NCBI RefSeq assembly: GCF_026241095.1
Contig: NZ_JAPFGB010000006.1
Coordinates: forward strand, 124,001 to 188,000
DNA from: Saccharopolyspora sp. NFXS83
GTDB lineage: Bacteria; Actinomycetota; Actinomycetes; Mycobacteriales; Pseudonocardiaceae
Reading direction: 5' to 3'
DNA: 64,000 bases
The notes beneath the pieces were generated by a model. It was not told the DNA's origin, ran no database searches, and saw only the letters and a program-made list of their open reading frames with translations. The translations under genes were made by a program, and so were the position numbers. Positions 4,436 through 51,785 of this stretch are shown here, piece by piece (the first letter of the stretch is position 1; each line of letters begins with the position of its first letter).

Positions 4436-5140
4436 ATGGGGACATCGGAACGCATCGGCACTCCGGCCGTCGCCGCGGCAGCGGGCGGCAAGCCCAGTTC
4501 GGTGCGCCGCGCCATCGACCAGATCCGGACGATGCTGCGCAGCCAGGAGATCCTGCCCGGCCAGTCGCTTCGCCAAGAGGCTCTGGCCGAGCGCCTCGGG
4601 GTGAGCCGGGTGCCGGTGCGGGAGGCGTTGAAGGCGCTGGAGGGCGAGGGCGTGCTGCACCACCGGCCGAACGTCGGCTACACGGTGGCGCGGTTGTCCG
4701 CGGATGAGCTGCGCCAGGCCTACCTGATGCGGGCGGCGCTGGAAACGGTGGTGCTGCGCGAGATTCCGCGCCTGACCACCGGCCAGCTCGCCGAGCTCAC
4801 CGCCCTCAACGAGCGGATCGCGGAGGCCGCCGCGGCTCCGGACGTGGCGCTGATGCTGGAGCTCAACCACGAGTTCCACTTCGCGGTGTTCCGCCATTCC
4901 GGGCTGAACCTGGTCGTGGACGAGATCGAGCGGGTGTGGCAGCGCACCGAGGTGTACCGGACCGTCTACCTCTACGACGAGGCGTCCCGGCGGCGCATCG
5001 TCCGCGAACACCGGCAGCTGATCACCGCCCTGCGGCGGGGCAGCACCGAACGCGCGGTGGAACTCATGAACGCCCACCGCGACGCCACCCGCGACACCCT
5101 CGCCCCCTCCCTCTCCCCCGCTCCCGCCCCGACCACCTGA
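4436..5140 (+). CDS. GntR-family transcriptional regulator, FCD type
   Basis: 234 aa. The winged helix spans about 20-85 (LRQEALAERLGVSRVPVREAL is the recognition region) and the FCD ligand domain about 90-220. Potential metal/ligand residues are in NHEFHFAVF, REHRQLI and AHRDATRD. FCD-type GntR proteins usually sense a carboxylic acid or acyl-CoA and repress the adjacent catabolic operon. The crotonase/ligase/transporter/dehydrogenase operon starts about 340 bp downstream on the same strand, and an ATTG-N4-CAAT palindrome lies between them. Control of that operon is inferred. Confidence 0.87.
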   Translation: MGTSERIGTPAVAAAAGGKPSSVRRAIDQIRTMLRSQEILPGQSLRQEALAERLGVSRVPVREALKALEGEGVLHHRPNVGYTVARLSADELRQAYLMRAALETVVLREIPRLTTGQLAELTALNERIAEAAAAPDVALMLELNHEFHFAVFRHSGLNLVVDEIERVWQRTEVYRTVYLYDEASRRRIVREHRQLITALRRGSTERAVELMNAHRDATRDTLAPSLSPAPAPTT

Positions 5141-5477
5141 CCGGCCGCCGCGAACCACGCCACACCTGGACCCCGCGCGGTTTCGCGCGAACTCGACACG
5201 CCGCCGAACCACGACCACCGGCCGCACCCCCGGTTTCGCAGGCCGGTTTCGGGCTCTCCCCAGAGGTCGGTGCGCGCGAATCCACGAAGATCTCGAGCGG
5301 GTTTCTCGGGTGCGCGGAGCTGGTCGAGAGCTGGCGGGAGAGCACTCGAAGCAGGTCCGGCGGGCTCGGGCGAGGACTGGTCGTTCCGGTGGATTGTATT
5401 CAATTTTGCATGGACTTCGTCGATCGTGACGTGGTTCACTCCGTCTGCGCAACGGGGTGGCGGCGGAAGGCGGCGGC
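5141..5477 (+). other. 337-bp intergenic region between gntR and the acid-catabolic operon
   Basis: No convincing gene. The left part is GC-rich. The stretch 5390-5440 is distinctly AT-richer than its surroundings and contains the possible operator at 5393. It is probably the promoter region of the downstream operon. The crotonase start at 5478 is preceded by GGAAGG (5463-5468). Confidence 0.5.
5393..5404. promoter_or_regulatory. Possible GntR/FCD operator ATTG-N4-CAAT
   Basis: The sequence ATTGTATTCAAT is a palindrome with one central deviation from ATTGTATACAAT, a form often bound by FCD-subfamily GntR regulators. It sits about 75 bp upstream of the crotonase start, inside the only AT-rich patch of the region. 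Binding by the upstream GntR protein is inference. Confidence 0.4.
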
Positions 5478-6260
5478 ATGGCGGACCTGGAATACCGAGT
5501 CTCCGAGGGCGTGGGCACGATCCTGCTCAACCGCCCGGAGCGCAAGAACGCGTTCACCTTGGAGATGGTCGACCAGTGGGCGCAGGCGGTCCGCCAGGCC
5601 CACGCCGACCCGGACGTGCGGGTGCTGGTGGTGACCGGCGCCGGGGACGCGTTCTGCTCCGGGGTCGACCTCGACGACTTCACCGGCGAGCGGAAATCCG
5701 TGCTGCAGAACAAGACCGTGCTCACCGAGCGCGTACACCAGGTGGCGCTCGCGCTGGAGGACATGGACAAGCCGGTGCTCGCATCGGTCAACGGCGTCGC
5801 GGTGGGCGCGGGCATGGACATGGCGCTGATGTGCGACATCCGGCTGATCTCGGAGTCCGCGCGCTTCTCCGAGGGCTACGTGCGGGTGGGCCTGGTGCCG
5901 GGCGACGGCGGCTGCTACTTCCTGCCCCGGCTGGTGGGTACGGCGAAGGCGCTGGAGTTGCTGTGGACGGGGGATTTCGTGGACTCCGCCACGGCCGTCG
6001 AGCTCGGCATCGCCACCTACCGCTACCCGGACGCCGAGCTGGCCGACCGGACCGCCGAGTTCGCGCGCAAGCTCGCGGCGGGCCCGCCGGTGGCCGTCCG
6101 GGCGATCAAGCGCGCGCTGTACCAGTCGGCGCGGTGCGATCTGCGCACCTCGCTGGACCTGATCTCCTCGCACCAGGCGATCGTGCAGTCCACCGAGGAC
6201 TCCGCTGAAGCGCTGAGCGCGTTCCGCGAGAAGCGCCGCCCCGACTTCCGGGGGCGGTGA
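5478..6260 (+). CDS. Crotonase-fold enoyl-CoA hydratase/isomerase family protein
   Basis: 260 aa. The crotonase fold is evident from NRPERKNAFT, GAGDAFCSGVDLDDF (oxyanion region) and VNGVAVGAGMDMALMCDI. The two catalytic glutamates of classical hydratases are not conserved: the GGCE position reads GMDM (Asp) and the PE position reads GY (Tyr). It may therefore be another crotonase-type activity rather than a standard hydratase. ATG 5478 is preferred over GTG 5457 because of GGAAGG upstream. It is the first gene of a five-gene operon and its stop overlaps the next start (GTGA). Confidence 0.82.
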   Translation: MADLEYRVSEGVGTILLNRPERKNAFTLEMVDQWAQAVRQAHADPDVRVLVVTGAGDAFCSGVDLDDFTGERKSVLQNKTVLTERVHQVALALEDMDKPVLASVNGVAVGAGMDMALMCDIRLISESARFSEGYVRVGLVPGDGGCYFLPRLVGTAKALELLWTGDFVDSATAVELGIATYRYPDAELADRTAEFARKLAAGPPVAVRAIKRALYQSARCDLRTSLDLISSHQAIVQSTEDSAEALSAFREKRRPDFRGR

Positions 6261-8353
6261 CATCCGCTGTGGAATCGCTGCTGAACCCCGCCGCGGTGGC
6301 GGTCGTCGGCGCCTCCGAGCGCAAGGCCATGGCCGCCAGGTTGACCCGGTTCCTCCTCGACGACGGGTTCACCGGCGCCGTCTACCCGGTGAACCCGCGC
6401 TACGAGCAGGTGCACGGCCTGCCCTGCTACCCGGCGCTGGACCGGATTCCCGGCCCGGTCGACCTGGTGCTGATCATGGTGCCCGCCGACCGGGTGGCCG
6501 AGGTCGTCGCCGAATCCGCGCGGGCGGGCGCGCGACTGGCGATCGTGCTGTCCTCCGGTTTCGCCGAGGTCGGCCCGGACGGCGCCGCGCTCCAGGACGA
6601 ACTGGCGGCCACGGCGCGGCGCTGCGGCATCCGCGTGCTCGGCCCCAACTGCCAGGGCCTGCTCTACCGGCCCGCCGCGCTGACCGCGACGTTCAGCTCC
6701 GGCGCGGGCCTCCCCTCCGCGCCGCCCGCCGAGACCGGCGGCATCGCCTACGTCGGCCAGAGCGGGGCGCTCGGCGGCAGCGTGCTGGGCATGGCGGCCG
6801 ACCGGGGTGTCGGTCTCACCGCGTGGATCTCCGTCGGCAACCAGGCCGACCTCACCGCGACCGAGGCGACCGCGCTGCTGCTGGAAGACCCGGCGATCCG
6901 GGTGCTGGCCTGCTACCTGGAGCAGTTGCCGGACGGCGCGGAGTGGACCGAGCTGGCCGACCGGGCCGCCGAGCTCGGCAAGCACCTGGTGGTGCTGCGC
7001 TCCGGGCGTTCGGAGACGGGTCGCCGCGCGGTCGCCTCGCACACCGGGGCGCTGGTCCGCTCCGGCGCGGCGTTCGACCTGGTCGCCGAGCGGTCCGGGG
7101 CGGTGCTCGTCGACGACATCGACGAGCTGCTCGACACGGCGATCGCGCTCGGCGGTCCGCGTCCGGCTGGCGGGCGGCTCGGGGTCGTCACCAGCTCCGG
7201 TGGAGCCGGTGGCCTCGCCGCCGATCAGGCCGAACCCACCGGCCTGCGACTGCCGGAGCTCGATCGGTCCACCCAGGACGTCCTCGCGCCGCTGATCCCG
7301 CCGTTCGGGAGCCTGGTGAACCCGGTGGACGTGACGGCGCAGGTCATCAACGACGCGAGCGCGCTCGGCCAGGTCTGCGAGGCCGTGGCCGCCGACGACG
7401 CGGTGGACGCCGTGCTGGTGCTGCTGACGACGCTCGGCGGGCGCACCGCGGAGCAGATCGCCGAGTCGATCCTGCGGGCCTCCCGCGGCTGCGCCAAGCC
7501 GTACGCGGTGGCGTGGCAGTACTCGCACGCCGAGATCGCGGCACCCGCCGGGCGGTTGCGGCGGGAGGGGATTCCCGTCGTCTCGACGAGCAGCGCGGCG
7601 ATCACCCTGCTGTCGCGGCTGCTGCCGCGCGACTGCCCCACCGTCGCCCCGGCCGCCCCGCCGGGCTCGGCGGGGCACCTGCCCACCGGCACGCTCACCG
7701 AGGCCGCCGGTGCGCGGTTGCTCGACGCGCTCGGCGTGGCCAGGCCGCGCGGCGGGCTCGCCACCGGTGCCGCTCAAGCCGAGGCCGTCGCCCGCGAGCT
7801 GCACGGCGAGCTGGTGCTCAAGGTCCAGTCACCGGACGTGCCGCACAAGACCGAGGTGGGCGGGGTCCTGCTCGGGGTGCCCGCCGCCGAAGCCGGAGCC
7901 GCCGCTGAACGCCTGCTGCGCGCGGTCCGGAGCGCGGCGCCGCACGCCCGGATCGACGGGGTGCTAGTGCAGGAACTCGCTGCACCGGGCGTGGAGCTGC
8001 TGGTCGGCGTGCGAGGCAGCCGTGACGGGTACCCCCCGGTGCTCACCGCGGGCTTCGGCGGCGTCACCGCCGAGCTCTACGCCGACGTGGTCACCGCGCT
8101 CGCGCCGGTCGACGTCGCGGGCGCCGAGCGGATGCTGCGCGCGTTGCGCGGGGCTCCGCTGCTCACCGGTTTCCGGGGCCGCCCGCCCGCCGACGTGCGG
8201 GCCGCGGCGACGGCGATCGCCGCGCTGTCGCAGGCCGCCGCCGCGTTGGGCGACGGCCTCGCCGAGTTCGAGATCAACCCGCTGATCGTGCACGCCGAGG
8301 GCGCGACCGCGGCGGACCTGCTGCTCACCAGAACGTCGGAGGTCCGCGGATGA
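6257..8353 (+). CDS. NDP-forming acyl-CoA ligase (fused alpha-beta subunits)
   Basis: 698 aa from a GTG overlapping the previous stop. Domain order is CoA-binding Rossmann (about 8-100, VGASERKAM), succinyl-CoA-ligase-like domains (GPNCQGLLYRP, VGQSGALGGS), the segment AVASHTGALVRSG that holds the likely phospho-histidine, and a C-terminal ATP-grasp domain (about 480-698, LVLKVQSPDVPHKTEVGG, FEINPLIVH). This is the architecture of ADP-forming acetate/acyl-CoA synthetases, which make acyl-CoA plus ADP and phosphate from an acid, ATP and CoA. The substrate is unknown. The neighbouring importer and dehydrogenases suggest activation of the acid brought in by the MFS protein. Confidence 0.88.
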   Translation: MTSAVESLLNPAAVAVVGASERKAMAARLTRFLLDDGFTGAVYPVNPRYEQVHGLPCYPALDRIPGPVDLVLIMVPADRVAEVVAESARAGARLAIVLSSGFAEVGPDGAALQDELAATARRCGIRVLGPNCQGLLYRPAALTATFSSGAGLPSAPPAETGGIAYVGQSGALGGSVLGMAADRGVGLTAWISVGNQADLTATEATALLLEDPAIRVLACYLEQLPDGAEWTELADRAAELGKHLVVLRSGRSETGRRAVASHTGALVRSGAAFDLVAERSGAVLVDDIDELLDTAIALGGPRPAGGRLGVVTSSGGAGGLAADQAEPTGLRLPELDRSTQDVLAPLIPPFGSLVNPVDVTAQVINDASALGQVCEAVAADDAVDAVLVLLTTLGGRTAEQIAESILRASRGCAKPYAVAWQYSHAEIAAPAGRLRREGIPVVSTSSAAITLLSRLLPRDCPTVAPAAPPGSAGHLPTGTLTEAAGARLLDALGVARPRGGLATGAAQAEAVARELHGELVLKVQSPDVPHKTEVGGVLLGVPAAEAGAAAERLLRAVRSAAPHARIDGVLVQELAAPGVELLVGVRGSRDGYPPVLTAGFGGVTAELYADVVTALAPVDVAGAERMLRALRGAPLLTGFRGRPPADVRAAATAIAALSQAAAALGDGLAEFEINPLIVHAEGATAADLLLTRTSEVRG

Positions 8354-46769: not shown

Positions 46770-47231
46770 TCAGAGCGCGTAGAGCTCGGGGAGGTTGACG
46801 ACGATGGCTTCTTGGGTGCTCCGGGAGATGACGACGACGGCCTTGTTGTCGGGGTCGGGGTTCTCCTCGCGGTGCGGGACGTAAGGCGGGACGAAGATGT
46901 AGTCCCCCGGTTCGGTCTTGATGCGGACCTCTTCGGTGCCGTCGTGGAAGACGAACTCAGGGTTGCCGCTGGCCACGTAGATCGCGGTCTCGGACTCGCC
47001 GTGGTGGTGGTTGTCGGAGGCGGTCGACGGAGCCACGTGGGTCTCCCCCGTCCAGATCCGCTCGGAGCCGACGGTGTCGCCGCTGATCGCGGCGAGCCGC
47101 TGCATCCCCTCGGTCTGCGCGGTGTTGCGGTCCAGATCGTCACCACGGATGTGGTGCAACCGCGCCCGCAGCGGGCGGTTCTCCTCGGGGCTCGCCTGCG
47201 AGCTGAAGTCGGGGTGGAAGGCGTCGGGCAT
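46770..47231 (-). CDS. Cupin-domain protein
   Basis: 153 aa. Cupin motif 1 is HHHGESETAIYVASG and motif 2 is PGDYIFVPPYVPHREENPD, giving the His/Glu metal site of small cupins (dioxygenases, isomerases or sensors). Soluble, no signal peptide. It is last in the sulfonate operon, 75 bp after the hydrolase-Rrf2 fusion, so a role in sulfur-compound handling is plausible but unproven. Confidence 0.82.
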   Translation of the reverse strand: MPDAFHPDFSSQASPEENRPLRARLHHIRGDDLDRNTAQTEGMQRLAAISGDTVGSERIWTGETHVAPSTASDNHHHGESETAIYVASGNPEFVFHDGTEEVRIKTEPGDYIFVPPYVPHREENPDPDNKAVVVISRSTQEAIVVNLPELYAL

Positions 47232-47306: not shown

Positions 47307-48380
47307 TCATGCGACGGGGCTCCGGTCGGCGGCGAGGTCGGCGATGGTGACCCGGTCGAGGAACTCGGCGACCGCGCCGCCCAGCCTCGCCCAGACGCCG
47401 TCCGGCCGCGCGTCGTCGTGGCGGGAGGTCACCGAGCCCTCCACGACGCGGACGACCTCGGCGACGGTGATCTCCGCAGCCGGTTTCGCGGGCCAGTAGC
47501 CGCCTTCGCAGCCGCGCTGGCTGTTGACCAGGCCGCCGCGCCGCAGCTCGACCATCAGGTTCACCAGCGAGTTCAGCGGGATTCCCTGGGTGCGGGCCAT
47601 CGACTCGCAGGTTTGCTGCCTGCCGCTGCGCGCGAGCTCGGTCAGCGCCCGCACCGAGTAGTCCACCCGCGCGGACACGTGCACGGGCGCGGCGCGGCGC
47701 ACCCGCGAGCCCTTCGCGGCCACGACCTCCGGAAGCACCACGGCGCCCTTGGCGATCTCCTCGCAGAACAGCACGATCCGGGCGGCGACGCTGCGGTGCA
47801 CCTTGTCGTTGAGGATGTCGTGCACGCCGTCCTTGAACACCGCCGAGGTGGCCTGCGGGTGCGCGGCGCCGAGCCTGGTCACCGGGTCCACGGGCGCGAT
47901 GGCGTCGCCGTCGCCGTGCAGCAGCAGCGTCGGGACCTCCGGGAGGCGCTGCGGCGGCGGCGAGGTGCCCGCGTCGAGCTCGCCCCACGTGAAGTCGGGG
48001 TCGGCGTGCAGCCGCTCCCGGTGGATCGGGCAGGACGTGCGCGCGGAGATCTCGTCGTCCCGGTTCGCCGGCCGCTCGGTCCCGTCCGCCAGCGGCGTGC
48101 CCGCCAGCACCAGCCCGTCGACCGGCGAGCGCAACGCCTCCTCCCAGGCGCGCAGCGCTCCGGTGTCGGTGCCGACGAGGATGCGGGCCGTGTCGCCGGC
48201 GTCGGCGAACCACGCCGCGGGCCCGCCGGGGTCCTCGGTGAGGTCGGGCACGACCACGGTGTAGCCGTCGACGGCGAGCCTCCGGCCGAACCGCTCGTAC
48301 ACACCGGGGTGTTCGCCCCTGCCGTGCAGCACCACGACGTGTCCCCGCGACGTGCTCTCGGGCACCCACGTGCGCGTCAT
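47307..48380 (-). CDS. Alpha/beta-hydrolase fused to an Rrf2-type regulator
   Basis: 357 aa in one uninterrupted frame. Residues 1-215 form an alpha/beta-hydrolase: VVVLHGRGEHPGVYERFG, nucleophile elbow G70-T-D72-T-G74 (Asp instead of Ser), LLLHGDGDAIAPVD with the acid, and His187 in GVHDILND. Residues 234-357 are an Rrf2 winged-helix protein: HVSARVDYSVRALTELAR, GIPLNSLVNLMVELRRGGL, and wing SQRGCEGGYWPAKPAAEIT. Of the Fe-S cysteines of IscR/NsrR only one (C291) is present. It lies in the ssu operon, suggesting a regulator whose hydrolase domain senses or processes a sulfur metabolite. The fusion is unusual. Confidence 0.85.
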   Translation of the reverse strand: MTRTWVPESTSRGHVVVLHGRGEHPGVYERFGRRLAVDGYTVVVPDLTEDPGGPAAWFADAGDTARILVGTDTGALRAWEEALRSPVDGLVLAGTPLADGTERPANRDDEISARTSCPIHRERLHADPDFTWGELDAGTSPPPQRLPEVPTLLLHGDGDAIAPVDPVTRLGAAHPQATSAVFKDGVHDILNDKVHRSVAARIVLFCEEIAKGAVVLPEVVAAKGSRVRRAAPVHVSARVDYSVRALTELARSGRQQTCESMARTQGIPLNSLVNLMVELRRGGLVNSQRGCEGGYWPAKPAAEITVAEVVRVVEGSVTSRHDDARPDGVWARLGGAVAEFLDRVTIADLAADRSPVA

Positions 48381-48477: not shown

Positions 48478-49611
48478 TCACGCCGGTGTCCGCTCGGTCC
48501 GGGTCTGCTCGCGGGCGCGGGCGCGGCGGGCGACCTCTTCGCGGACGGCCGGAATGAGTTCGCGGCCGTAGTCGATGGCGTCGTCGAGCGGGTCGTAACC
48601 GCGGATGAGCAGCGTGGTCACGCCGATGTCGACGTAGTCGGCCAGCGCCTGGGCCACCGTCCCGGCGGTGCCGACGAGCGCCGTGGAGTTGCCCGCGGCG
48701 TTCGTGGCCTGCGTGGTGGGGGTCCACAGCGCGCGGTCGTGCAGTTCGCCCTTCGCGGCGGCGGCGAGCAGGCGCTGCGAGCCGACGTTGGCGACCTCGG
48801 TGCCCTTGCCGAGCGTCTTCGGCCCGGTGAACGAGCCGAACCCGCCGCGGGCCGCGCGGATCCGGTCCAGCACGGAATGCGCGCGTTCCCAGGCGAGTTC
48901 CTCGGTGGCACCGAGGATCGGCCGGAACGACACGCTGATGCCGGGCGTGTCGGTGCGCCCGGCCACGCGGGCGGCGGCGCGCACCGAAGCGATCTGCTCG
49001 GTGGTCTCGGCCAGCGGTTCGCCCCACAGCGCGAACACGTCGGCGTGCTTGCCGCCGACCCGGTACGCGGCCTCGGAGGAACCGCCGAAGTACAGCGGAA
49101 TCCGGGGTCGCTGCACGGGTTTCACCGCGGTCTGGAAGTCCTCGAAGCGGTAGTTCGGGCCGTCGTGGCTGATCGGCCCTTCCTCGGTCCACGCCCGCTT
49201 GAGGATGTCGAGGTACTCGTCGGTGCGGGCGTAGCGCTGCTCCTTGTCGAGGTGGTCGCCGTCGCGGCGCTGCTCGGCGTCGCTGCCGCCGCTGATGACG
49301 TGCACCGCGATCCGCCCGCCCGCGAGGGCGTCCAGCGTCGAGAAGGTGCGCGCCGCCAGAGTCGGCGACGCGAAGCCCGGCCGGTGCGCCACCAGGAACC
49401 CGAGCCGGTCGGTGTGCGCGGCGACGTGCGCGGCGATCTGGGTGCCGTCCGGTGAGCCGGAGCCGTGGCCGATGAGCACGCGGTCGAATCCGCCGTCCTC
49501 GTGGGCGCGGGCGAAGCGGCGCAGGAACTCCGGGTCGATCGCGGGTCCCTGGGCGCTGTGGATCTCCGAGACGTGCTGAGCGCCGATCATGCCGACGATT
49601 TCCACACTCAT
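48478..49611 (-). CDS. ssuD: Alkanesulfonate monooxygenase-like LLM flavoprotein
   Basis: 377 aa. Luciferase-like FMNH2-dependent monooxygenase: DPEFLRRFARAHEDGGFDRV, LVAHRPGFASPTLAARTFST, LAGGRIAVHVISGGSDAEQ and YARTDEYLDILKRAW match SsuD-type enzymes that cleave alkanesulfonates to aldehyde and sulfite. It follows the ABC ATPase and permease genes and precedes the hydrolase-Rrf2 fusion. No flavin reductase gene (ssuE) is present, so reduced FMN must come from elsewhere. The exact sulfonate or sulfone is unknown. Confidence 0.87.
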   Translation of the reverse strand: MSVEIVGMIGAQHVSEIHSAQGPAIDPEFLRRFARAHEDGGFDRVLIGHGSGSPDGTQIAAHVAAHTDRLGFLVAHRPGFASPTLAARTFSTLDALAGGRIAVHVISGGSDAEQRRDGDHLDKEQRYARTDEYLDILKRAWTEEGPISHDGPNYRFEDFQTAVKPVQRPRIPLYFGGSSEAAYRVGGKHADVFALWGEPLAETTEQIASVRAAARVAGRTDTPGISVSFRPILGATEELAWERAHSVLDRIRAARGGFGSFTGPKTLGKGTEVANVGSQRLLAAAAKGELHDRALWTPTTQATNAAGNSTALVGTAGTVAQALADYVDIGVTTLLIRGYDPLDDAIDYGRELIPAVREEVARRARAREQTRTERTPA

Positions 49612-49740: not shown

Positions 49741-50541
49741 TCAGTGCACTCCGAGCCACGAGAGGAGTTCGGCGCGCTGCGCGACGAACGCGGGCGCGGA
49801 CACGTCGCGCGGGCGGGGGTGTTCGACGAGCTGGTCGTGCACGATGCCGCCGTCGTTCATCACCAGTACCCGATCGGCCAGCAGCAGCGCCTCTTCGACG
49901 TCGTGGGTGACGAGCAGGATCGCGCACCCGTGGCGCTGCCACAGCTCCCCGACCAGCGCCTGCACCTTCAGCCGGGTGAGGGCGTCGAGCGCGGAGAACG
50001 GTTCGTCCAGCAGCAGCAGGTCCGGCTCGCGCACCAGCGCGCGGGCCAGCGAGGCGCGCTGCGCCTCACCGCCGGAGAGCACCTTCGGCCACACGTCCAC
50101 CCGGTGCCCGAGGCCGACCTCCTCCAGGGCGGCGACGGCCCTGGCCCGGTTCGGCTTGCCGCGCAGGCCGAGGATCACGTTGCGCCACACCCGTTTCCAC
50201 GGCAGCAGCCGCGGCGCCTGGAAGGCCACGGCGCGCCGCTGCGCCACCTGGACCTCTCCGGTGATCTCGCGATCGAGGTCGGCGAGGATGCGCAGCAGGG
50301 TGCTCTTGCCGCAGCCGCTGGGGCCGAGCAGCGCCACGAACTGGCCCGGCTGGATGTCCAGGTCCAGGCCGTCGATGACGGTGTTGTCGCCGAAGCTCTT
50401 GGTCAAGCCGCGCACCGTCGCGGGCAGCGCGGCGGTGGACGCGGTCCCGTCGTCGGCAGGGCCCGCCGCAGGGGCGGCGGTGTCGGGGTTCGCGGTCTCG
50501 GGGGCGGATTCCGTCACGCTCCGCGGAAAGCCGGTCGCCAT
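49741..50541 (-). CDS. ssuB: Sulfonate ABC transporter ATP-binding protein
   Basis: 266 aa from ATG 50541, overlapping the permease end by 28 bp. Walker A GPSGCGKST, Q-loop FQAPRLLPWKRV, signature LSGGEAQRAS, Walker B LLLLDEPF and His-loop LLVTHDVEEA. The pattern is that of the nitrate/sulfonate/taurine subfamily (SsuB/TauB). A 35-residue Ala/Pro-rich N-terminal extension precedes the domain. Energises import together with SsuC. Confidence 0.9.
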   Translation of the reverse strand: MATGFPRSVTESAPETANPDTAAPAAGPADDGTASTAALPATVRGLTKSFGDNTVIDGLDLDIQPGQFVALLGPSGCGKSTLLRILADLDREITGEVQVAQRRAVAFQAPRLLPWKRVWRNVILGLRGKPNRARAVAALEEVGLGHRVDVWPKVLSGGEAQRASLARALVREPDLLLLDEPFSALDALTRLKVQALVGELWQRHGCAILLVTHDVEEALLLADRVLVMNDGGIVHDQLVEHPRPRDVSAPAFVAQRAELLSWLGVH

Positions 50542-51368
50542 GCCAGCACGGTCCTTTCGAGAAGTCGAACGATGAAGTCGGCCACCAGGCCGAGCAGGGC
50601 GTAGAGCACCAGGCAAACCACGATCACGTCGGTCTGGAAGAACTCGCGGGCCATGTTCATCTCGTAGCCGATGCCCGCGTTCGCGTTGATCGTTTCGCCG
50701 AACACCAGCGCCAGCCACGCCGAACCGAGCGAGAACCGCAGGCCCACCAGCGCGTTCGGCATCGCGGCGGGCAGGATCACGTGCCGCACCTGGGCGAACC
50801 AGCCGAGCCCGAGGGTCTTGGCGGCCTCCACCAGGCCCGCGTCCACGTTGCGGATGCCGCCGAAGATGTTCATGTACAGCGGGAAGGTCACCGCGAGCGC
50901 GATGAGCACGATCTTCGGCGTCTCCCCGATGCCGAACCAGATGATCAGCAGCGGGATCAGGCCGATCACGGGCACCGTGCGCAGCATCTGCATCGGCGCG
51001 TCGGCGATGTCCTCACCGCGCCGGAACAACCCGGAGATCGTGGCCAGCACGACCGCCGCGATCAGCCCGAAGACCAGTCCGATCGCCACGCGCTGCACGG
51101 AGGCCAGCACCGCGTCCTGCAGCCTGCCCTCCTGCCACATCTCCCAGGCGGTGGCCGCGACCGTCGCCGGGGACGCGAGCGTGTCGTCGTCGAGCACGCC
51201 GGTCGAGCTGAGCAGCTGCCACAGCGCGATCAGCGCGATCGGGCTGAAGGTCTTGACCAGCCAGCGGGGAATTCGCTCCTCTCCCTTGGATCGGCTGGTC
51301 CGCACCGTCGTGACGGGGATGCCGTCGGTATCGGGTCGGGCGCTCGGGGGCGCCGCGGGCGAAGTCAT
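50514..51368 (-). CDS. ssuC: Sulfonate ABC transporter permease
   Basis: 284 aa from ATG 51368. About six membrane segments after a hydrophilic 45-residue N-terminus. The EAA loop is EAAKTLGLGWFAQVRHVILP, typical of binding-protein-dependent permeases of the SsuC/TauC type. It is the first structural gene after the leader peptide. No gene for a periplasmic-type binding lipoprotein (SsuA) is adjacent, so it must be encoded elsewhere. Confidence 0.9.
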   Translation of the reverse strand: MTSPAAPPSARPDTDGIPVTTVRTSRSKGEERIPRWLVKTFSPIALIALWQLLSSTGVLDDDTLASPATVAATAWEMWQEGRLQDAVLASVQRVAIGLVFGLIAAVVLATISGLFRRGEDIADAPMQMLRTVPVIGLIPLLIIWFGIGETPKIVLIALAVTFPLYMNIFGGIRNVDAGLVEAAKTLGLGWFAQVRHVILPAAMPNALVGLRFSLGSAWLALVFGETINANAGIGYEMNMAREFFQTDVIVVCLVLYALLGLVADFIVRLLERTVLAWRPAFRGA

Positions 51369-51421
51369 CGTCACGCTCCACTGGCGACAAGGATCTGCGT
51401 AGGACGGCACGGTTCGCGACC

Positions 51422-51559: not shown

Positions 51560-51637
51560 TCAGGCGCTACAGAGCGCGGAGGACACCCGTGCGTTGTCCA
51601 CGTATTCGCGCGTGGTGAGGGTCGCCGTCCGGGCCAT
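51560..51637 (-). CDS. Cys-containing leader peptide of the sulfonate operon
   Basis: 25 aa from ATG 51637. The peptide starts MARTATLTTREYVDNARV and ends SSALCSA. It matches the short actinobacterial leader peptides with the pattern TRxxVDxxRVSSALC found upstream of sulfur-assimilation genes. The Cys codon near the stop suggests cysteine-responsive attenuation. A promoter-like -10 only 7 bp upstream of the ATG would give a leaderless transcript. Confidence 0.7.
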   Translation of the reverse strand: MARTATLTTREYVDNARVSSALCSA

Positions 51638-51644
51638 GCGATCA

Positions 51645-51672
51645 CGCTAACCGGGCACCACCCCGGTGTAAA
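51645..51672 (-). promoter_or_regulatory. Candidate promoter for a leaderless transcript of the ssu leader
   Basis: On the minus strand TTTACA (51672-51667), 16 bp, TTAGCG (51650-51645), then 7 bases to the leader ATG. This spacing puts transcription start at or next to the A of ATG. Confidence 0.45.
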
Positions 51673-51785
51673 CCCAACTCGACAGCCCAGGATTGACCTC
51701 CCGGATCGTGGGACTCCCCGGCTGATACCGCTGAACCCCGGAAACCCGGGAGTGCGCCCACCACCGCTCCGCTAACTTGATCGAG

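Follow-up and report, generated by a model that had tools for sequence, protein, structure and literature searches.

Within a stretch of 64,000 nucleotides from the genome of Saccharopolyspora sp. NFXS83 (the window, meaning the whole stretch at its full length), a single gene among sulfonate-type genes appears to encode both an alpha/beta-hydrolase and an Rrf2 transcriptional regulator. Is this joining of enzyme and regulator genuine, and could the product act as a one-protein sensor, in which the hydrolase pocket binds or turns over a sulfur metabolite and the Rrf2 part controls the operon, as a preliminary description of the window proposed? We address these questions by examining the gene and its relatives, their genomic neighbourhoods, the conserved residues of both domains and the promoter of the operon.

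The fused gene

The hydrolase–Rrf2 fused gene is real. In the translation of the window's open reading frames, a frame of 357 amino acids runs uninterrupted from ATG to stop on the minus strand (47307–48380), and the two domains that the preliminary description had read in it both score above their Pfam gathering thresholds. The Rrf2 family (PF02082) matches residues 236–351 (E = 3.6e-23; 82.6 bits against a gathering score of 30), and the NCBIfam model for the Rrf2 superfamily (TIGR00738) scores 80.2 bits against a cut-off of 73.3. Hydrolase_4 (PF12146) matches the N-terminal part (E = 9.7e-12; 45.1 bits against 27) in two stretches, the better of which covers residues 11–46. The gene, its parts and its neighbours are as follows.

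46770–47231, minus strand: cupin, downstream of the fused gene (Pfam, locus mapping)
47307–48380, minus strand: fused gene, consisting of an alpha/beta-hydrolase (residues 1 to about 215), a linker and an Rrf2 winged helix (residues about 234–351) (open reading frame, Pfam, family alignment)
47325–47681, minus strand: Rrf2 part of the fused gene (Pfam), with the recognition helix PLNSLVN, C258 and C291 invariant in the fused set and no Cys in the loop that would match the Fe–S ligand loop of IscR/NsrR
47736–48380, minus strand: hydrolase part of the fused gene (Pfam), in which D72, D159, H187 and C117 do not vary among the fused proteins
48478–49611, minus strand: SsuD-like (LLM) monooxygenase (Pfam, NCBIfam, locus mapping)
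49741–50541, minus strand: SsuB-like ABC ATPase, start inferred at ATG 50541 (longest open reading frame 49741–50718)
50514–51410, minus strand: SsuC-like permease, possibly starting at ATG 51368

An AlphaFold2 model of the fused protein, built on a seven-row alignment, is modest (mean pLDDT 65.6), and the arrangement of the domains is unreadable in it; the winged helix is modelled fairly to well (pLDDT 77–92 in blocks 241–310), and the linker and the region of the catalytic His poorly (pLDDT below 50). The top Foldseek match of the model is CymR (2y75; E = 2e-9; TM 0.81 of the target), which supports the comparison with CymR drawn in the preliminary description, and the match for the hydrolase part is a monoglyceride lipase (3hju). 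No hydrolase–Rrf2 fusion is described in the titles and abstract beginnings listed by searches of an open-licence library; one may be in print elsewhere.

Distribution and phylogeny of the fusion

The search for the two-domain architecture covered overlapping samples of genomes from the same family (297), order (397) and class (394). A full-length fusion, with a match reaching from residue 6 or earlier to residue 346 or later, is present in 29 of the 297 family genomes. Homologs of the two domains are thus not always separate genes, and an artefact of frameshift or chimeric assembly is ruled out. No internal stop occurs in 28 of the 29; in the remaining genome (G268), the fused protein has 343 amino acids and the stop lies only past its C-terminus. 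By genus label, with denominators taken from the full genome list of the same sample, the fusion is found in all six genomes of the window's genus (g1), 12 of 22 of g26, 9 of 25 of g5, one of two of g19 and one of 18 of g43, and the fused proteins of the family sample span 52–91 per cent identity to the window's protein. Six named Saccharopolyspora records also carry it, several of which are genomes already in the family sample. Among the matches listed, the fusion occurs in at least seven of the 397 order genomes, all of them of the same family, and in at least one of the 394 class genomes, the window's own; no fused form outside the family is among the matches listed for either sample. For four long matches that cross a stop (in genomes G685, G858, G804 and G833), no Rrf2 gene was found in the stretch mapped.

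We reconstructed a maximum likelihood tree of the hydrolase part from 92 rows (26 fused, 3 adjacent and 63 solo; one duplicate genome was left out). The fused rows form one group (support of 100/98; recovered in 99 per cent of 200 bootstrap trees), inside which no separate-gene row falls. Nearest to the fused rows is L101 (support of 95/93), a solo hydrolase from a different family, and not the adjacent trio L058–L060; at the locus of that solo hydrolase (L205) none of the other queried genes was found. A single fusion event would be the simplest reading of the tree. The fusion may have originated from neighbouring genes like those of L058–L060, where SsuD, hydrolase, Rrf2 and cupin are encoded by four separate genes in the same order.

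Genomic neighbourhood

Genes for SsuC, SsuB and SsuD lie upstream of the fusion in 26 of the 26 mapped fused loci and a cupin gene lies downstream in 25 of the 26, a set that includes one genome twice (L007/L041). The context given in the preliminary description (ssuC, ssuB, ssuD, the fusion and the cupin, behind a Cys leader peptide) is present in the window, and its order is kept in relatives. The proteins themselves are best called Ssu-like: the window's monooxygenase scores 210.5 bits against the 518.2 required by the SsuD equivalog model (TIGR03565) and is therefore SsuD-like only, and because all of the window's Ssu-type proteins fall below the NCBIfam equivalog cut-offs, annotation does not pin down what they act on. 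No ssuA was found in the window operon, in which the fusion directly follows ssuD. In several relatives (nine loci viewed), an SsuA-like binding protein and a class II aldolase-type protein, named from its sequence and not from a family search, are encoded between SsuD and the fusion; the aldolase-like gene and ssuA occupy this place in L041, L038, L056 and L004, and the window lacks both.

The hydrolase does not need the regulator, since 14 of 18 mapped loci of stand-alone hydrolases are without an Rrf2 gene. Many stand-alone hydrolases lie in organosulfur loci, where they adjoin a cupin, NtaA-type or SsuD-type monooxygenases and ABC ATPases (the ABC matches being weak and unspecific). One on a Streptomyces plasmid is located beside ssuE, near genes for O-acetylhomoserine sulfhydrylase and homoserine O-acetyltransferase; the annotated neighbours of another, on a Pseudonocardia plasmid, are mixed and not uniformly of organosulfur type. 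Loci with three family labels (f1, f33 and f34) contain relatives of the window's cupin (46770–47231) close to the hydrolase. At L072 (6744–8339), a hydrolase of the same type shares one frame with two rhodanese stretches, and at the related locus L071 hydrolase and rhodanese are adjacent, separate genes.

These neighbourhoods bear on the alternative that survives best, a fusion of convenience, in which co-transcribed neighbours were joined once, the joint was kept for the linked dose and folding that it brings, and both parts, an enzyme and a local regulator, work with no cross-talk. Unfused neighbours in the same order do exist (L058–L060), and the single hydrolase–rhodanese frame of L072 beside the adjacent pair of L071 suggests that such joining is easy. 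The retention of the fusion across the whole range of identity given above, with no separate-gene row inside the fused group, is weak evidence of coupling and speaks against this alternative, which we regard as a serious one that falls somewhat short of an even chance.

The hydrolase part

The nucleophile elbow of the hydrolase part reads G70-T-D72-T-G74, with Asp in place of Ser, as had been noticed in the preliminary description. D72, D159, H187, C117, C258 and C291 are invariant in 27 aligned fused rows; C117, the third invariant Cys besides the two of the Rrf2 part, is located in the hydrolase part, in the motif RT[SA]CP[IV]HR. Of the other hydrolase hits, 66 are distinct; all 66 keep C117 and H187, 65 keep D159 and, when scored by machine, 62 keep D72. 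The last four were inspected by eye, and these apparent exceptions are shifted alignments with G[SA]D[AS]GA nearby in each. Because the Asp elbow is kept in stand-alone relatives, it is a trait of the family, consistent with an Asp nucleophile, and D72, D159 and H187 would form an Asp-nucleophile triad. We reject the reasoning that the hydrolase must be dead for having Asp instead of Ser, as Asp is the norm of the family. The Ser nucleophile that marks the elbow of serine hydrolases such as monoglyceride lipase is replaced by Asp in 27 of 27 fused rows, and no dehalogenase or epoxide hydrolase is among the matches listed from profile, alignment and Foldseek searches.

The Rrf2 part

CymR is an Rrf2 winged-helix protein that is not known to have Fe–S ligands, and Rrf2 proteins of the IscR/NsrR type have three Cys ligands of an Fe–S cluster in the loop after the winged helix. 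At what we take to be the matching loop of the fused protein, the region corresponding to the IscR/NsrR ligands has no Cys in any of the 27 aligned fused rows. The fused protein scores 53.8 bits with the IscR/NsrR-type model (TIGR02010; cut-off of 207.55) and 60.5 bits with the CymR equivalog model (NF047409; cut-off of 195), and is thus below both cut-offs. The preliminary description held that the wing keeps one Cys, C291, instead of the three Fe–S ligands. C291 is indeed present, but it does not stand at the site of an Fe–S ligand, and a second invariant Cys of the Rrf2 part, C258, had been missed. In alignments with CymR, C291 takes the place of Ala in the wing's RG.GGY, a position that rejects it as a remnant ligand, given that the Fe–S loop lies later and has no Cys. 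C258 is located at the start of helix 2 of the helix-turn-helix, and the alignment places it about three residues from Cys25 of S. aureus CymR, presumably the redox site of that protein. Both the recognition helix, PLNSLVN, and the wing are invariant in the fused set.

Eight of 14 distinct separate Rrf2 relatives have C258 and C291 together, and all eight have a cupin gene near; of the six without both Cys, three were mapped, none of them with a cupin. The recognition helix of the eight two-Cys relatives is IP[PAF]RF[IL]K, not PLNSLVN. These observations bring in a second alternative, a thiol switch, in which a disulfide or adduct of C258 and C291 senses cysteine, persulfide or oxidation and the hydrolase is only an enzyme. 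The invariance of the two Cys in the fused rows, their retention in cupin-linked separate relatives and the nearness of C258 to the place of Cys25 all point its way, and we consider it possible, though less likely than not.

A candidate operator at the ssuC promoter

The ssu promoter region to which the preliminary description drew attention (51640–51700) contains a conserved dyad that recurs at an unlinked ssuA operon and that, as a putative regulatory element, is new in this analysis. In the window, the following elements were read upstream of ssuC.

51560–51637, minus strand: Cys leader peptide MARTATLTTREYVDNARVSSALCSA-stop (NF042934, E = 3.2e-4, below the cut-off)
51644–51672, minus strand: inferred promoter, TTTACA (51672–51667), 17 bp, TAGCGT (51649–51644), read by eye; the predicted start is the leader ATG
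51670–51694, minus strand: candidate operator AATCCTGGGCTGTCGAGTTGGGTTT, canonical in its right half and degenerate in its left, with three mismatches

In the fused loci, the dyad AATCCCAAC-N7-GTTGGGTTT, whose right half after AATCCCAAC-N7 is GTTGGG(T/A)TT, precedes the Cys leader peptide at the ssuC promoter; it is followed by a –10-like TANNNT box and then at once by the leader start (boxes read by eye). Its centre lies about 41–46 bp before the leader start, a position that would fit either repression or class II activation. An RNA hairpin is an unlikely explanation of the dyad, which sits upstream of the predicted transcript start. The window's own copy at ssuC is weak, with a degenerate left half (AATCCTGG).

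With up to four mismatches the dyad is found at 25 of 25 ssuC promoters, and with up to three at 24 of 25, counts that are descriptive because the motif was derived from these same promoters; 912 control windows of the same loci contain none with three or fewer mismatches and three with four. The exact core CCCAA-N4–9-TTGGG is present in 13 of the 27 fused loci, the window not being among them, and in none of the 20 loci in which hydrolase or Rrf2 genes are unfused. We assessed the symmetry of the dyad in 21 hand-chosen sites, a set that omits the promoters of L043, L044 and L046, where the right arm is one G short, omits L008, L040, L041 and L057 as near-copies and includes three sites from other loci. 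Positions 1–25 and 4–22 pair in 21 of 21 sites, 2–24 and 5–21 in 17, 6–20 in 16, 7–19 in 15, 8–18 in 13, 9–17 in 10 and 3–23 in only three.

The Cys leader is present at 25 of the 27 fused loci. At the two others, the contig starts inside ssuC (L047) or a contig end is close and there is an apparent insertion upstream (L006). Scores against NF042934 (cut-off of 27 bits) are 20.2 for the window and 22.9 for L005, both below the cut-off, and 31.2 for L050 and 32.0 for L048, both above it. The leader mRNA is probably leaderless, starting at ATG 51637, like the cysteine attenuators of M. smegmatis that an excerpt of PMC9031893 cites.

A second operon with the same site

In a whole-genome scan that allowed one mismatch, the dyad was found in 23 of the 297 family genomes, namely in 21 of the 29 with the fusion and two of the 268 without it (Fisher P-value = 1.3e-23, kinship ignored); because the fused genomes are related, this association is not one of independent observations. 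A reversed-pattern control of the scan matched in nine of the 297. Eight of the 29 fused genomes lack a site at this limit; two of these eight are among the six genomes of the window's genus. Seventeen of the 21 hits in fused genomes lie at the ssuC promoter or were assigned to it (L145 and L158 are on other contigs, with the leader beside the site and the link to ssuC inferred, and G220 is placed by distance only). The other four, in the g1 genomes G000, G101, G120 and G137, mark a second site that is unlinked to the first. As for the two unfused genomes, G080 has no leader beside its site and G145 carries a decayed copy of the ssu operon. This copy (L157, G145:C8:179000–192000, 6273–8300) keeps the dyad, the leader, SsuC and SsuB, has an apparent SsuD remnant and has lost the fusion.

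The window's own genome (97.5 per cent complete) contains two dyads with up to two mismatches to a pattern based on the window, and two Cys leaders of this type, at the same two places. One place is the ssuC promoter, and the other is a second operon.

L153 (G000:C45:10000–25000), 4801–7398: dyad, leader MPQRPMLTTRDHVDLSRVSSALCHR-stop, NMT1/SsuA-type binding protein and luciferase-type (LLM) monooxygenase

The dyad of this ssuA operon has one mismatch, and the operon supplies the SsuA-like uptake component that is absent from the window operon. That two unlinked operons share a site speaks for a protein that binds DNA, and this second, unlinked site is the strongest point in favour of reading the dyad as a putative operator.

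We rejected the possibility that the dyad is a general part of Cys-leader promoters. A search for leaders that covered the window's genome and 18 of the remaining 28 with the fusion turned up three other Cys leaders without the dyad (L164, L169 and L182). The fused-type dyad was not found at the promoters of separate-gene loci or in their divergent stretches between cupin and Rrf2 genes. Eight of eight promoter stretches viewed at these loci (a raw count) share the element GGACACC or its complement (GGTGTCC), located upstream of SsuD in L058–L060 and between cupin and Rrf2 in L195–L199; this different element is in keeping with their different recognition helix. That the dyad is bound by a regulator encoded elsewhere, with the fused Rrf2 part acting on other genes or only dimerising, is favoured by the dyad's travelling with its operon but is unlikely, given that the only two dyads of the window's genome at the limit used are both at organosulfur operons, that just two of 268 unfused genomes have the site (one of them in a decayed ssu operon), that neither recognition helix nor wing varies among the fused proteins, and that separate relatives differ in both recognition helix and shared promoter element.

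Proposed mechanism

On balance, we lean towards reading the fused protein as a CymR-like regulator that controls an organosulfur regulon of two operons and is made in one chain with an enzyme; the state of a ligand or of thiols would probably set its DNA binding. The fusion and its conservation, the gene order, the dyad and its two-site layout are there to be read in the sequences; to these the proposed mechanism adds predicted DNA binding, predicted catalysis, a coupling of the two and a sense of control that may be repression or activation. The C-terminal Rrf2 part would be a CymR-like regulator without an Fe–S cluster that binds the dyad as a dimer. It would control its own operon (ssuC-ssuB-ssuD-(aldolase)-(ssuA)-fusion-cupin), that is, by autoregulation, and also the unlinked ssuA-monooxygenase operon that the window's genome shares with three close relatives, with the Cys leader peptide as a putative second, translation-coupled layer of control. 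The N-terminal part is predicted to be catalytically active as a hydrolase in organosulfur use, its nucleophile being Asp (D72/D159/H187) and its cap containing the invariant C117. The ligand state of the hydrolase, the thiol state of C258/C291, or both, would probably set DNA binding, by analogy with CymR and CysK.

From the same analogy, sensing of a sulfur metabolite by the enzyme part is plausible. A narrower proposal is that of a single-protein metabolite sensor, in which an Asp-nucleophile organosulfur hydrolase, through the cluster-free Rrf2 domain to which it is joined, signals directly to a sulfonate regulon of two operons which substrate or product state it is in; we put this forward only tentatively and hold it to be less likely than not. 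Taken overall, the interpretation in the preliminary description is partly supported.

A conserved fusion in soil actinobacteria, with a predicted operator and a small regulon, would offer a test of an enzyme active site driving an Rrf2 domain. Organosulfur uptake in Saccharopolyspora and Pseudonocardia relatives also gains a putative operator and a candidate regulator from the analysis, which draws attention to an uncharacterised hydrolase family that is often found among organosulfur genes in several actinobacterial families.

Comparison with known systems

Most known Rrf2 regulators either sense through an Fe–S cluster or thiols or work with an enzyme that is a separate protein. The DNA motif of CymR itself differs from the dyad of the fused loci. 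The separate SsuD-hydrolase-Rrf2-cupin sets (L058–L060), which come from the same family, comprise the same four functions in the same order, with both Cys in the Rrf2 protein, but they are unfused, have the recognition helix IP[PA]RFIK and another promoter element, and in the tree a different hydrolase lies closer to the fused group than theirs. The monoglyceride-lipase-like enzymes of Hydrolase_4 have the fold and the Asp and His of the triad in common with the hydrolase part, whereas the latter has Asp and not Ser at the elbow, an invariant RT.CP cap motif and a different gene context.

The window's leader resembles actinobacterial Cys-rich leaders (NF042934; Canestrari et al. 2020, as cited in PMC9031893) in being a short open reading frame that ends in SALC and starts at the predicted transcript start, but it scores below the cut-off and has one Cys instead of a polycysteine run. 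For Rhodococcus IGTS8, an excerpt of PMC8557817 reports a CymR/Rrf2 protein that was detected only in dibenzothiophene culture. The CymR–CysK system of Bacillus and Listeria is like the fused protein in its Rrf2 winged helix, its sulfur genes and its use of an enzyme as the signal partner; according to an excerpt of PMC9239247, B. subtilis CysK, called a trigger enzyme, acts through CymR. The partner there is a separate CysK, whereas here it is a fused alpha/beta-hydrolase, and the fused protein does not reach the NCBIfam cut-off for CymR. If the narrower proposal of a single-protein metabolite sensor is true, the fusion would be a permanent, hydrolase-based version of the CymR–CysK trigger-enzyme pair.
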